From assembly GCA_003153555.1 (NCBI GenBank), contig PLZS01000060.1:146899-210898 (forward strand): DNA of 64,000 nucleotides, in the 5' to 3' direction. How positions within the stretch are numbered: the stretch's first letter is position 1; each line of letters opens with the position of its first letter. This document shows, in pieces, positions 30,229 through 48,537 of this stretch. This stretch comes from Candidatus Melainabacteria bacterium (GTDB lineage Bacteria > Cyanobacteriota > Vampirovibrionia > Obscuribacterales > Obscuribacteraceae). The notes beneath the pieces were generated by a model. It worked only from the letters and a program-made list of their open reading frames with translations. It made no database searches and had not been told where the DNA came from. A program made the position numbers and the translations under genes.

Positions 30229-33192
30229 TCAACTGTGAATCGGAAGAATAAGCCAAAACGTACTTCCATGTCCAAGTTCGCTGTCGACACTGACTGTGCC
30301 ACCATGGGAATCAGCAATTAATTTGCAGATTGCCAGGCCAAGACCGAACCCGCGCGCTTTATCGCTTGCCTTGGTTTGATAGAATCTCTCGAACAGCTGT
30401 TCTTGACTCTTCGCGTCCATGCCTGGGCCCTGATCTCGAACCCCGATTTTGAATCTGTCGCCGTCGTGCTCGGTGACCACACTTATTTGGGTGTTAGGCG
30501 GAGAAAATTTGATGGCATTGGATAAATAATTGAGTAGGACTTGCAAGACTCTCGATCTATCCGCGGGGAGTTCGAAACCTTCACTCTCGTTCAACATCTC
30601 AATTTGACGATACTTCGCGATGCTAGCCAGTGCTGCAAGTGCTTCATTGACCGCCTCTCGGACTTCAAAAGGTTTAACGCGAATAATGAGTTTGTTCTCT
30701 TCGGCACTTTCGAGAGTGAGCAAATCATCTACCAACTGGAGGATGCGTTCTATGTTTCCCTTGATAGCAAGAATATGTCGTGGTGCGGTGTCCGGCATTT
30801 TATCTAGTAGAAGCGGTTCAACCTGACTAAGAGCATCTCTTGCGGATGTAAGTGGGGAGCGCATATCGTCAACAAGCAGCTCGACGATCGCTTGCCTTTG
30901 TCGGGCTGCTTCGATGATCTCCGCGGCTCCTCGATGCAGAATCACATCTAGGTATACCAGTTCGTCGCCGCCGCTCAATTCTTCCAACAGCGGTTCTCGC
31001 CGCGGTAACTTCTTTGCATTCGCCACTAAAATGTTCAGACGTTTCGTAATATGGATATTGAACACGAGCACCAATATCAGTGCCAGAATAAAGTTTGTAG
31101 CCAGCCATGCGAAGACAATTCTTTGTAAGGACTGTTTCGATTGAGTCTGTTCGGCACGAAGTCTATCCAATTCGGATTTTTCCTTCGCGAAGAGATCGTC
31201 ATAGGTCGCTGCGACATATGACATTGCGTTGGAATAGTCGATGAACACTTGAAAGATAGAAGCAGAGCCCATCAATCCAAGATGTGGACGTTCAGTAATT
31301 TGCAGCTGCAAGTTCATTGGTTTGATCATCGCAAACTCAAAGAGATCAACCAACCTCGCTTCAGCGGGATAGCCGCTAGTTTGTTCCTTGAGTCTGGCCT
31401 GCACCCTGCGAGCAACGTCGGCCTGCGCTTTGGCCTGTTCTTTCCATTTTGGATTTCCGGAAAGAGCATAACTAGCCGCGTTTACAGTCACATCAAAGGT
31501 TGCATTCAATCCGGCGTTTACATTCAGCAGTGTGTCGGTTAAACGTTGGATCGTCGTCGCTTGCGCTTCACCTATCTGCAATTCGTGGTTGAGCCACCCG
31601 ATCCAGAGCGCTTCCAGGCACAAAGGAATAATGACGAGAGCGATTCCCTTGTGAATAATGCGCGTACCAAACCATCCTTTCGGTTTATATTGATTGAAAG
31701 ATTTAGGACTATATTTAGTACCACTTATTACAGGCACAGTCGTTGCAGGATTTGCAGCGCTAGGCATTCTCACCCAGAGTGAATTGAAGCCATCTTTTTG
31801 CTCGAAACCTACCGCACCACCATGAGCTTGCGCAATTAGCTGACAAGTAACAAGACTGAGACCAACGGCTGTACTTTTGTTGCCGTGCTTTGGGAATTTT
31901 TTGAAAAGATCAGTGCTTACTGAACGATCTAGTGGCGGGCCCGGTGCTTTAACTGCGACTCTGACACCATCCTCGGTGGTTTCTGCGAACACTGATATTT
32001 CCGACGCGCTGCCTGGAAATGCTTTCACACTGGCGATGTAATTTATCAATAACTGTTCGAACTTTTCTTTGTCTGCGCGAATCAATCGATCAGGGCAAGT
32101 ATTCTTGATGGAAAACTCAGCGAGATCGCCGACTTCCCTATAAGAAAGAATCGCTTCGTCAACTGCCTCTTTGATGTTGAATTCGCTGACACTGAAATCG
32201 ATTTTCCCCGCTTCAAATCTTTCAATTGTCAACAGCTCGTTGACCAGCCTGAGCACTTGATTGACGTACTGGCTTACTGACTCAAGTGTATGCGCCGCGT
32301 CGGTTGGCAATTTTGCCGACTGTGGGTGATTGAGAACTTCGGTCGATACCTGAGCAGCCATGAGCGGTGAGCGCATATCGTGCGCCACCATTTCCATTAT
32401 CGCTCTACGATGATCGTCGGACTGGCATAACTGCTCGTTGGCAGCATGCATTACTGTATCCAGATAGGCAAGTTCGTCGCTGCCGGAGACAACCTCAGTG
32501 AGCTTCTCGCGCAAAGGTAACCTCCGAGCGTTGTCTATCAGTAGTTGAAGACGACCAGTGATGTTCCTGTTGAACAAGTACAGAAGCAATGCTGCCAGGG
32601 CAAAATTGCTGGACAGCCCCGCATATACAAGAAACTTGAGCCGGTTTCGCGCAGATTGTTCACGTGCTCTTGTGGCGAACAGTCCGTTCATTTCTGCTTG
32701 CATCAAAGTGCCAATTTTTACGCCGTCGCTTATACCCAACCGAAGTAGTGGTCCGAGGTCTCTGCAAGCACCTAAATTATCAAGCATGGTCGAACCAGGC
32801 TGTGCAGATGGCAGAGCACTTAGTGACTTCCACTCGGTCTCAGACATGCGTTCAAGTTCGCTTATGGTTTCGAGTCTAGCTGGATCGTTTGCGGACAGCT
32901 CTCGAAGCTGTTCATAGCGCTTGTGTAGTGCGTTGTGTTTTCTATTGGCGTATATTGCCCATGCTATTTTGGGATCGAACATGCGGCTCATCAATTCCAA
33001 GATGACGACGTGTCTGTCTTCACTTGCGCCAGCAAGATGCATAGCAAAGTCTCGTTGTTTGGTTTCTTCAGCAGCCAAATATTCTGTAGATAGCCATAAC
33101 TGACTGAGCACCAGAAGCCACAGTGTCTCGAGGATTAGAGGTATTAGAACGAGCGCCAGACCCTTATGCAAGATGCGCGGATGGAGACTCAC
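30229..33192 (-). CDS. Duplicated (tandem) sensor histidine kinase
   Basis: A 987-residue chain made of two homologous kinase halves. Each has a membrane helix after HKG(L/I)ALV, a ~160-residue extracytoplasmic region, a second helix, a HAMP-like linker, a HisKA helix and a HATPase domain. Half 1 keeps the phospho-acceptor (AHDMRSPL, His271) but its ATPase is degenerate: N-box Asn replaced (INYIASVKAF), APGPPL instead of DxGxG, and AVGLSL instead of GLGL. Half 2 has Asp775 at the His position (VDDMRSPL) but an intact ATPase (NYLSNAIKF, DQGPGM, GFGLGLAICK). The halves may cooperate in phosphorylation. No response regulator gene is adjacent except a remnant at 34250. Confidence 0.92.
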   Translation of the reverse strand: MSLHPRILHKGLALVLIPLILETLWLLVLSQLWLSTEYLAAEETKQRDFAMHLAGASEDRHVVILELMSRMFDPKIAWAIYANRKHNALHKRYEQLRELSANDPARLETISELERMSETEWKSLSALPSAQPGSTMLDNLGACRDLGPLLRLGISDGVKIGTLMQAEMNGLFATRAREQSARNRLKFLVYAGLSSNFALAALLLYLFNRNITGRLQLLIDNARRLPLREKLTEVVSGSDELAYLDTVMHAANEQLCQSDDHRRAIMEMVAHDMRSPLMAAQVSTEVLNHPQSAKLPTDAAHTLESVSQYVNQVLRLVNELLTIERFEAGKIDFSVSEFNIKEAVDEAILSYREVGDLAEFSIKNTCPDRLIRADKEKFEQLLINYIASVKAFPGSASEISVFAETTEDGVRVAVKAPGPPLDRSVSTDLFKKFPKHGNKSTAVGLSLVTCQLIAQAHGGAVGFEQKDGFNSLWVRMPSAANPATTVPVISGTKYSPKSFNQYKPKGWFGTRIIHKGIALVIIPLCLEALWIGWLNHELQIGEAQATTIQRLTDTLLNVNAGLNATFDVTVNAASYALSGNPKWKEQAKAQADVARRVQARLKEQTSGYPAEARLVDLFEFAMIKPMNLQLQITERPHLGLMGSASIFQVFIDYSNAMSYVAATYDDLFAKEKSELDRLRAEQTQSKQSLQRIVFAWLATNFILALILVLVFNIHITKRLNILVANAKKLPRREPLLEELSGGDELVYLDVILHRGAAEIIEAARQRQAIVELLVDDMRSPLTSARDALSQVEPLLLDKMPDTAPRHILAIKGNIERILQLVDDLLTLESAEENKLIIRVKPFEVREAVNEALAALASIAKYRQIEMLNESEGFELPADRSRVLQVLLNYLSNAIKFSPPNTQISVVTEHDGDRFKIGVRDQGPGMDAKSQEQLFERFYQTKASDKARGFGLGLAICKLIADSHGGTVSVDSELGHGSTFWLILPIHS

Positions 33193-33201
33193 GATAGCGG
33201 C

Positions 33202-34086
33202 CTACTTCTTGTCCTTCGTTAGGAACGGACTTTCGTTGTACAATTCTTGTTCAACCTTCCGGACTGCAGCCTTATCTTGCAGTGCACGTTTGGTGTCTTT
33301 GAGAGTTTCATAGCAGCTCGCTCGCTCACCAAGAAGCTCTACGAGCATTTTAAAAGCTGGATAGATTGCGCGGCTCTCTTTGTCTATACGCTCTATGTTC
33401 GCCCTCTGTGCCTTAACCAAGAAATCCAAATCGACGAGCGCCATTCGCGATTGATTTGAAGCCATAAGGGCACGAGCGCGATGCTCACGGCCGTTAAACT
33501 GATCACCGCTTTTTATGATTTCGGATGACATTTGAAGTGCCATTTGATTATCACCGCTCAGACGCGCGCAATCGGATAGCTCAGTCAATAGACCAGTAGA
33601 TCCGAGTTGTCTGGCGATTTTGAAATTCTTGATCGCGTCCTTATAGTTCTTCTGTTTTTGGTAAAGCTTTCCCAATTCTGAAGCTGCATTACTTGCTATC
33701 AACTTGTTCTTTGAATCTATCAACCTCTGGTAATCGGCGATGCATTCGTTGACACGATTTTCATTGCGATATTCCTCTGCTCGTTCCATGCGCACAGCGT
33801 CAGCATTTGGATGTGTATTTAGATACTTGGAATAGAGGTTAAGCGCTTCTTCGTCATCAAGCATTTTTTTGCTGTAGCGAGCACGTTTCAGTAAGTCTTC
33901 ATCCGATTCAATTTTTGCCAGTGTCGATGCGGTCGGTTTGTGAGTCTGGTCAGAATTGTTAGAACAATACGCAGGCAGCTCCCACAAAGCGGAAAGCGCG
34001 CACGAAAGAACGAGGAGAATGCCGTTGCTCTTGAGAGTTTTCACTTTAATGGTGTCCAGTCCAGTTCGTTCTAGCGGTAGGACCAT
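33202..34086 (-). CDS. Secreted TPR protein
   Basis: The 294-residue frame has a signal sequence (KSNGILLVLSCALSALWELPAYC) starting about 18 residues in. A GTG at 34044 would give a more normal signal peptide (VKTLKSNG..), but no ribosome site decides between the two, so I give the longer ATG form. TPR-like units run from about residue 65 (ARYSKKMLDDEEALNLYSKYL) through GKLYQKQKNYKDAIKNFKIARQLG to the end. It lies 9 bp upstream of the duplicated kinase on the same strand, so the two are probably co-transcribed and the TPR protein may act with the kinase sensor region. Confidence 0.8.
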   Translation of the reverse strand: MVLPLERTGLDTIKVKTLKSNGILLVLSCALSALWELPAYCSNNSDQTHKPTASTLAKIESDEDLLKRARYSKKMLDDEEALNLYSKYLNTHPNADAVRMERAEEYRNENRVNECIADYQRLIDSKNKLIASNAASELGKLYQKQKNYKDAIKNFKIARQLGSTGLLTELSDCARLSGDNQMALQMSSEIIKSGDQFNGREHRARALMASNQSRMALVDLDFLVKAQRANIERIDKESRAIYPAFKMLVELLGERASCYETLKDTKRALQDKAAVRKVEQELYNESPFLTKDKK

Positions 34087-46695: not shown

Positions 46696-48537
46696 ATGAA
46701 GTTCCTCGTCATTGGACTCAAGTCTGACGAACGGACAACCATTAAGAAGACGCTCACTAGCATTGCTGGGCTGGATCCTGACCTGCAATTGTCAGGTCAT
46801 TCTGTTGAAGGCCTATTTAAAATTCGCAGTTTTCAGCCCGATATTGTTTTACTTGACGATAATATGTTGGATGCCGCGATGCTCATTCAGCTTCGCCAAT
46901 CTAAGCCTGACGCGTTGATCTATGTGATAGTCGATTCTCAAACTGACCTGCGTGCCTGCGAGCTAATTCGAAAGGGCGCAACAGATTTGATTTCGCGCGA
47001 CCAGCTCAACAGTGAGTCTTTCACGTCCCTTATCACTCGGGCTGCCGAAAGGATTAGGGGTAGCGGACAATTTAATAGCAATGAATTGAATAAGGCAAAC
47101 GCTAGGCTCTCCAATATTGCTAACACGTTGTCAAACCTTTCCTGGGTATCAGATGAATCCGGCGATCGAATTTTGTTCAACGACAAATGGCTGAAGTTCA
47201 CAGGTCGCACTCTGGAACAAGAGTGTGGCAAAAAGTGGGCTGAATTGGTTCATCCTCAGGATTTGAGGAAGTTCTGGGCGGTCTACACAAAAGCGTGCCG
47301 CGACCATACGCCTTACCATATTGAATACCGGCTTAAAAAGTCAGATGGGCAGTTCCGTTTCATGTGGGAGTCGGGGGCGCCACAGTTTGATCCGGCTGGA
47401 CACTTTATCGGACTAATTGGATCATGTGCTGACATAATTGAGACAAGATTCACTCAGCACTCGTTGCCGGCTCTTCGTGAAACCGTGCAGCTATTCACTA
47501 CTCTAGACAACGCTCCAATCGGCGTTTGGAAGCTTGATTCCAATTTGGTGATTACAAAAGCGAATCCCGCTGTTGCCACTCTATTCAGTGTTGCTCCAGA
47601 GCGGCTTGTCGGATTGTCATTTCCAGCGCTAGTTTCCTCGATGCCTGAGAACGCTTTCATTCGCGTTTTGGAAAAGGGCGAACGTATTAAATTGGAAAAT
47701 CATCCCGTTACATTGGCGCTCGATGAGCAGCGAAGAAAAGTGTTTTTGGACCTTGCCGCGTGGCCCTTGAGAGACAAATCAAATAATGTCGTTGGCGTTT
47801 GTGTCAGCACTGCGGAAGTCACACAGAGGCTATTGCAAGAGCAACAACGTGATGATTTTGTCGCCACGTTGGTGCACGATTTAAAGACGCCATTGATTGG
47901 CGCCGATCAAGCTTTGGAAGCAATGATCAGAGGTTGTTTGGGACCGATTGATCCAGGTCAATCGGAATTACTTTCGATGCTTAAACGAAGCAATCAGCAT
48001 TTGTTGACGATGGTGCAAAATCTGATCGAAGCTTATCGATACGATGCTGGTGAGGCACGTATGTCGGTTGAAGAATTCAGCCTGTTCGAATTGATCGATG
48101 TTTCTTTGGAAGAGCTGAGCGCGTGGGCTCAACACAAAGAAATAACCATGCGTTCAAGTTTTCCGCGAGGCACTGGCCGAGTTCTCGGTGATCGTCTGTC
48201 GATCAGGCGTGTTCTCCTCAACCTGCTCGATAATGCTCTCAAATTTACTCCCAAGGACGGTTTGATAGAAGTGTCCGCAGACGAAGATGACGACGACATC
48301 ATTTTTAGGGTCAGCGACACAGGAGTTGGCATTCCGGAAGCTGAATTAGGAAACCTGTTCCTTCGTTACTGGCAAAGTGATAGCGCTAAACAGCACACTC
48401 CTGGTACAGGGTTAGGTTTATATCTTTGTCGCCAGATAGTTACCGCTCATGGTGGCACAATCTCTGTCGCTAGTAAAATTGGTGAAGGCACTACATTTAG
48501 TGTCGTGTTACCAAAGCAGCCTCCGCCTCAAAATTAG
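46696..48537 (+). CDS. REC-PAS-PAS hybrid sensor histidine kinase
   Basis: The 613-residue protein has no membrane helix. Residues ~1-115 are receiver-like (MKFLVIGLKSDERTT, FQPDIVLLDDNMLDA, DALIYVIVDS, KGATDLI). PAS domains span ~145-255 (DESGDRILFNDKWLKFTGR) and ~268-378. HisKA has VATLVHDLKTPLIG with the phospho-His near 398. HATPase shows LLDNALKFTP, DTGVGIP and GTGLGLYL. The N-terminal receiver suggests a relay in the cytoplasm. AGGGAG precedes ATG 46696. No partner regulator is adjacent. Confidence 0.92.
   Translation: MKFLVIGLKSDERTTIKKTLTSIAGLDPDLQLSGHSVEGLFKIRSFQPDIVLLDDNMLDAAMLIQLRQSKPDALIYVIVDSQTDLRACELIRKGATDLISRDQLNSESFTSLITRAAERIRGSGQFNSNELNKANARLSNIANTLSNLSWVSDESGDRILFNDKWLKFTGRTLEQECGKKWAELVHPQDLRKFWAVYTKACRDHTPYHIEYRLKKSDGQFRFMWESGAPQFDPAGHFIGLIGSCADIIETRFTQHSLPALRETVQLFTTLDNAPIGVWKLDSNLVITKANPAVATLFSVAPERLVGLSFPALVSSMPENAFIRVLEKGERIKLENHPVTLALDEQRRKVFLDLAAWPLRDKSNNVVGVCVSTAEVTQRLLQEQQRDDFVATLVHDLKTPLIGADQALEAMIRGCLGPIDPGQSELLSMLKRSNQHLLTMVQNLIEAYRYDAGEARMSVEEFSLFELIDVSLEELSAWAQHKEITMRSSFPRGTGRVLGDRLSIRRVLLNLLDNALKFTPKDGLIEVSADEDDDDIIFRVSDTGVGIPEAELGNLFLRYWQSDSAKQHTPGTGLGLYLCRQIVTAHGGTISVASKIGEGTTFSVVLPKQPPPQN

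Follow-up and report, generated by a model that had tools for sequence, protein, structure and literature searches.

In a normal histidine kinase dimer, two symmetric phosphorylation reactions are possible. Ordinary HisKA sensor kinases such as EnvZ, HK853 and DivL, the last of which lacks the phospho-acceptor His and is called a tyrosine kinase in the title of its PDB entry, are homodimers of one unit that consists of a transmembrane (TM) sensor, a DHp domain and a HATPase_c fold. An engineered monomeric kinase, EnvZ[AAB], reportedly goes back to Qin et al. in 2000. The gene described here lies in a 64-kb stretch of Candidatus Melainabacteria DNA (contig PLZS01000060.1; "the window" below means this whole stretch) and encodes a tandem histidine kinase with the same TM sensor, DHp and HATPase_c folds. 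Unlike the homodimers, it consists of two diverged halves fused in one chain, with the phospho-acceptor His in half 1 and the intact ATPase in half 2. We consider it quite probable that this chain is a single-chain heterodimer kinase, in which the half-2 ATPase phosphorylates His271 of half 1.

A His/ATPase pair of this kind works between subunits, as was found by mixing EnvZ mutants (PMC4734776), and EnvZ[AAB], a kinase core with an additional DHp attached, is active (PMC8971529). EnvZ[AAB] resembles the window chain in that a single chain combines two DHp domains with one working ATPase, and the order of its kinase domains is that of our short relatives (P0016 type, see below). However, EnvZ[AAB] is engineered, its DHps are alike and it has no second sensor, whereas the window chain is natural, its second DHp is without His and a membrane sensor lies between the DHps. 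In the split kinase CheA3/CheA4 of Rhodobacter sphaeroides, the His and the ATPase also reside in two partners, one of which phosphorylates the other (PMC3591291, PMC6829392), but these are soluble CheA-type proteins with a separate HPt-like domain encoded by two genes, whereas here we deal with HisKA membrane kinases, mostly fused, whose partners both have the DHp-CA layout. Non-hybrid kinases with two transmitters, which likewise have no receivers, accounted for only 2 of 15,704 in a survey of published genomes, and the available sections of that survey do not discuss complementary losses (PMC3018481); the present group, on the other hand, has many per genome. No natural tandem kinase with complementary losses was found in the literature searched, which comprised open-licence papers only, in agreement with a preliminary description of the window whose author knew of no kinase arranged in this way.

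That description had proposed two tandem membrane kinases 504 residues apart, and the chain is indeed so built: the halves align with this offset at 29% identity across 484 columns (E 7e-68), and hydropathy peaks at residues 11, 188, 516 and 692 place a predicted membrane sensor ahead of each kinase core. At the H-box, half 1 reads VAHDMRSPL (His271) and half 2 reads VDDMRSPL (Asp775), so that the retained His and its replacement in the half with the intact ATPase were both correctly described. The ATPase motifs of half 1 vs half 2 are NYIASVKAF vs NYLSNAIKF, KAPGPPL vs RDQGPGM, and AVGLSL vs GFGLGL. The N-box Asn and DxGxG are thus gone from half 1 as had been stated, but GLGL, also listed as lost, survives in altered form as GLSL, and the HATPase_c fold is still just over the Pfam cut-off. 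When the halves were scanned apart, they scored oppositely for HisKA and HATPase_c (Table 1), while the whole chain at E up to 1 gave two HATPase_c and two HisKA regions and no receiver, Hpt or CheW domain. Of the features expected of a HisKA sensor kinase, the His is found in half 1 only and the N/DxGxG/GLGL ATPase set in half 2 only; no single DHp-CA unit of the window chain combines them.

Protein searches gave three close homologues, P0002, P0003 and P0004, which cover 98-100% of the query and are 95, 67 and 58% identical to it. In all three, half 1 carries the His and a broken ATPase, and half 2 the Asp and an intact ATPase, indicating that the pattern is conserved and ruling out chance or a lone oddity; a sequencing error at 30868-30870, which had been considered as a way to restore the His, is excluded since these homologues share the Asp. 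Of the core domains, the degenerate ATPase changes fastest (56 vs 70% identity for the intact ATPase to P0003, and 53 vs 65% to P0004) and is still modelled as an ordered alpha/beta domain. Relatives carry D, R, Q, L, E, S, N or G at the position of Asp775, for which reason we set this residue aside as a new catalytic site. Homologues with both halves intact, which would have pointed to a plain recent duplication, do exist (P0005-P0012, P0014, P0015), but they are only ~30% identical and stand alongside many with complementary losses; this, and the low identity between the halves, rules out such a duplication.

Motif states were read first in 28 related chains and then in 136 two-core chains gathered from the loci and every homologue search, after identical or contained sequences had been removed (371 to 346). 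The His was in half 1 and the ATPase in half 2 in 26 chains, the order was reversed in 29, and 76 were intact; four had two His and one ATPase, one had one His and two ATPases, and a double loss in the same half occurred in none of the 136. Note that these counts are biased, as the queries themselves carried the pattern. The half-1 ATPase domain is wholly deleted in nine chains (P0016, P0018-P0024, P0026) and in loci L016-L022. Named relatives come from Candidatus Melainabacteria/Obscuribacterales and from metagenome-assembled genomes labelled 'Cyanobacteria bacterium', the order being confirmed in the taxonomy. A search with the complete chain at E 1e-80 matched 5 of 60 genomes, the window's own included, all from the same family group. 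None of the 13 chains with source names in other groups (Sorangium, Polyangium, Mucilaginibacter and others) was complementary.

A survey independent of the pattern was made in five genomes, G000 (the window's genome), G002, G013, G024 and G028, in which HATPase_c matches were listed and long frames taken. Open reading frames (ORFs) of at least 700 amino acids were classified with family-derived profiles, frames under ~780 amino acids being mostly left out and pieces contained in longer ORFs dropped. Among 36 two-core ORFs, 33 had at least three predicted TMs; L038, L056 and L060 had fewer and were excluded. In 25 of these 33 tandem membrane kinases (8 of 9 in G000, 2 of 5 in G002, 7 of 8 in G013, 3 of 4 in G024 and 5 of 7 in G028), one half has kept the only His and the other half, without exception, the only fully intact ATPase, although the 25 cases are not independent events. 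Five have the window's order (L001, L071, L073, L095 and L098, which is the same gene as L021) and 20 the reversed, mirror-image order. Both halves were intact in three (L051, L057, L072), and loss of both functions from the same half was seen in 0 of the 33. Note that the first DHp of L110, L112 and L113 was missed by the profile, the alignment showing no His at the aligned position, and that the intact ATPase of L117 was detected as two pieces.

The same division also occurs between separate genes. Three adjacent same-strand complementary pairs (L120, L121 and L101; Table 1) were present among the single-core chains with broken motifs, suggesting that the division of labour needs a heteromeric partner and not a fused chain. 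As a separate observation, the His partners of two pairs, L120:3227-5734 (minus) and L121:3073-5598 (minus), have four predicted TMs ahead of a PAS domain, which suggests that each carries two sensors in one chain.

A quick tree of 135 half-cores was built with the motif columns removed (one row, L101_1343, is absent, its twin L083_6343 having been skipped). L073, which has the window's order with the half-1 ATPase deleted, groups with the intact L072 in both halves (support 99 and 99), and the reversed L048/L030_5687/L058 group with the intact P0130-P0143 in both halves (99 and 97). These are the two clear contrasts in the tree, and they place the origin of each order, independently of the other, among intact tandem kinases. 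L028 and L063, which keep both His and have a broken half-1 ATPase, group with P0025/P0026/P0027 (96-97); in this lineage ATPase loss may have preceded His loss, or the His may have been lost more than once.

We propose that the two DHp domains pair within one chain, like two ordinary kinase subunits, and that the half-2 ATPase would transfer a phosphoryl group to His271. With the half-1 ATPase and the half-2 His given up, one of the two reactions of the symmetric dimer would be left, since one His and one ATPase in opposite partners keep exactly one reaction. Some kinases phosphorylate within one subunit (PMC5956149), and in these it is a same-half loss that would be tolerated; apart from L031 (see below) such a loss was not observed. 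The two predicted membrane sensors would feed this single reaction, integrating two signals, and the phosphoryl group would then be passed to a response regulator encoded elsewhere. The preliminary description had already suggested transfer from the ATPase of one half to the His of the other; at the level of sequence, conservation, relatives of both orders, half-1 ATPase deletions and split pairs argue for it, as do, weakly, two structure models, and we infer that the two sensor regions of the window chain belong to a single working kinase. What was found goes beyond that description in including both orders as well as fused and split forms, and the best reading of the family as a whole is that these are naturally occurring, obligate (pseudo)heterodimers whose ATPase half would phosphorylate the His half as in the engineered EnvZ[AAB].

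Regarding candidate regulators, 7 of the 25 survey kinases (L059, L071, L073, L081, L082, L095, L098) have a receiver-domain gene no more than 2.5 kb away. Such genes also adjoin L016-L022, L024 and L026, and five of the neighbouring or split-pair regulators, examined by Pfam, were all Response_reg plus Trans_reg_C proteins. The remaining survey kinases have no receiver gene in the fetched flank, save one that is shared by three L029 kinases and lies more than 2.5 kb off. In G000, six reversed-order tandem kinases are clustered on contig C66 at ~15-41 kb (L029, L030, L048), with one response-regulator gene near the cluster start.

Several results weigh against a single-chain heterodimer. A locally built receiver profile found no receiver-domain gene in the window, and none of the 150 genome receiver candidates scored, out of 200, was assigned to it. 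Two His are kept in 3 of the 33 survey kinases (L028, L063, L097) and two ATPase motif sets in 2 (L112, L113), and the second ATPase of some reversed forms is only partly broken, L030_5687 having lost one of four motif checks and L058 two. Since the tree is poorly resolved, with support below 80 on 57 of 132 inner branches and at least 20 state changes required, the number of independent origins is not exactly countable. In G000, half 1 of L031:754-3126 (plus) is intact but half 2 ends just before its DHp, which may reflect a same-half loss, a decaying gene or an assembly break. Nine long single-core ORFs of G000 were checked by Pfam as hidden same-half losses and turned out to be PAS/GAF/REC sensor kinases or a PAS pseudokinase, leaving L031 as the sole same-half case. 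Two single-chain AlphaFold models, with pTM of 0.49 and 0.50, are compatible with docking of the half-2 ATPase on the half-1 His domain and with a single four-helix bundle made by the two DHps, but they were compared by the first and last aligned residues of structural matches, not by coordinates; DHp2 was aligned with CA2 instead in 10 of 50 rows for one model and 15 of 50 for the other (e.g., RetS at 3.3 A and ShkA at 2.6 A), and such rows do not by themselves show DHp1 in the bundle. In Foldseek searches against PDB, kinase cores matched at 5-9 A but no ranges were given, and these matches were not used as pairing evidence.

Half 1 of one chain could instead meet half 2 of another, in a domain-swapped or antiparallel dimer with transfer between both halves and chains. 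This predicts an identical motif pattern, and the three split pairs must act between chains; however, fusion supplies the partner in cis and single-chain models can bring DHp1 and CA2 together, though one-chain models could not reveal a two-chain form, and we regard such a dimer as rather unlikely for the window chain. We give very little credence to a relay of the TodS-type/Red kind, in which another kinase or regulator would feed half 1, acting as a phosphotransfer module, and half 2 would be a kinase for a partner protein. Second transmitter domains do have phosphotransfer roles in TodST and RedCDEF (PMC3018481), but those relays have receiver domains between the transmitters, whereas Pfam finds none in the window chain, and complementary loss in both orders (25 of 33) and in split pairs would be a coincidence. 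Neutral decay of a redundant duplicate, leaving a pseudogene or one surviving half at work, does occur, as shown by L031, and the fastest change in the degenerate ATPase (53-56% vs 65-70% identity to P0003/P0004) would fit it. On the other hand, neither half of the window chain is a complete kinase, the 987-codon frame is open in four homologues down to 58% identity with the catalytic residues kept, and 25 complementary losses stand against 0 same-half ones, making decay extremely improbable.

Kinase dimer symmetry and within- vs between-subunit transfer are usually probed by engineered mutant mixes. Nature seems to have fixed such a mix permanently here, in both orders, fused and split, and with close intact relatives (L072 vs L073), so that the family allows a direct test of one-sided kinases and of two sensors joined in one output, and offers a natural template for insulated two-input receptors. 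A broader reading, to which we give slightly less than even odds, is that an order-level bacterial radiation repeatedly made symmetric kinase dimers obligately asymmetric, whether fused or split, leaving each with a single His, a single ATPase and two membrane sensors that differ; such a receptor would hold at most one phosphate and would be a two-input gate that is not formable by homodimer exchange.

Table 1. Features of the tandem kinase gene and its neighbour in the window, and the split gene pairs of related genomes (aa, amino acids).
Feature	Position	Strand	Details
Tandem histidine kinase gene	30229..33192	minus	987 aa, GTG start; ORF and Pfam scan
Half 1, residues 1-504: membrane sensor, DHp with His271, degenerate ATPase	31681..33192	minus	Half alignment and Pfam
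Half 2, residues 505-987: membrane sensor, DHp without His, intact ATPase	30229..31680	minus	Half alignment and Pfam
Predicted TM1, residues 11-29	33106..33162	minus	Hydropathy peak 2.44
Predicted TM2, residues 188-206	32575..32631	minus	Hydropathy peak 1.72
HisKA (DHp) of half 1, residues 262-329	32206..32409	minus	PF00512, 36.8 bits (cut-off 26.9), half 1 scanned alone
His271, sole phospho-acceptor His at an H-box in the chain	32380..32382	minus	Codon CAC
Degenerate HATPase_c of half 1, residues 374-477	31762..32073	minus	Ser388 at N-box Asn; APGPP 416-420 at DxGxG; GLSL at GLGL; 27.1 bits (cut-off 26.4, barely passed)
Predicted TM3, residues 516-534	31591..31647	minus	Hydropathy peak 2.08
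Predicted TM4, residues 692-710	31063..31119	minus	Hydropathy peak 2.68
HisKA-like (DHp) of half 2, residues 771-832, without His	30697..30882	minus	19.9 bits, under the Pfam cut-off
Asp775 replacing the phospho-acceptor His	30868..30870	minus	Codon GAC; P0002-P0004 and P0013 share the Asp
Intact HATPase_c of half 2, residues 878-985	30238..30561	minus	Asn892, DQGPG 920-924, GFGLGL 948-953; 100.5 bits
TPR-repeat protein gene	33202..34086	minus	Ends 9 bases before the kinase start, same strand
L120 pair			836 aa with His and broken ATPase, 662 aa with Ile for His and intact ATPase; frames overlap
L121 pair			842 aa, and 651 aa with Ser for His
L101 pair			718 aa, and 592 aa with Ser for His, then an OmpR-type regulator of 224 aa

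The TPR-repeat gene and the window kinase are probably co-transcribed. A second kinase-sized ORF lies in the window at 46696-48537 (plus, 613 amino acids), and its frame matches HATPase_c and the half-2 query at G000:C171:194737-195417. Four of the five surveyed genomes have chains of ~800 amino acids that look alike, L041:1417-3867 (minus), L065:3467-5878 (minus), L099:2792-5170 (minus) and L122:1015-3372 (plus). They have no His and no ATPase motifs, DxGxG being replaced by SSGPS or SSGPA, and L041 contains a PAS domain; these are likely a conserved pseudokinase sensor. In addition, L038:396-3917 (minus) and L056:2653-6141 (minus), from two genomes, are tandem kinases with 2 and 1 predicted TMs, respectively, in which Thr replaces the first His and both ATPases are intact, and the L038 frame also holds receiver domains.
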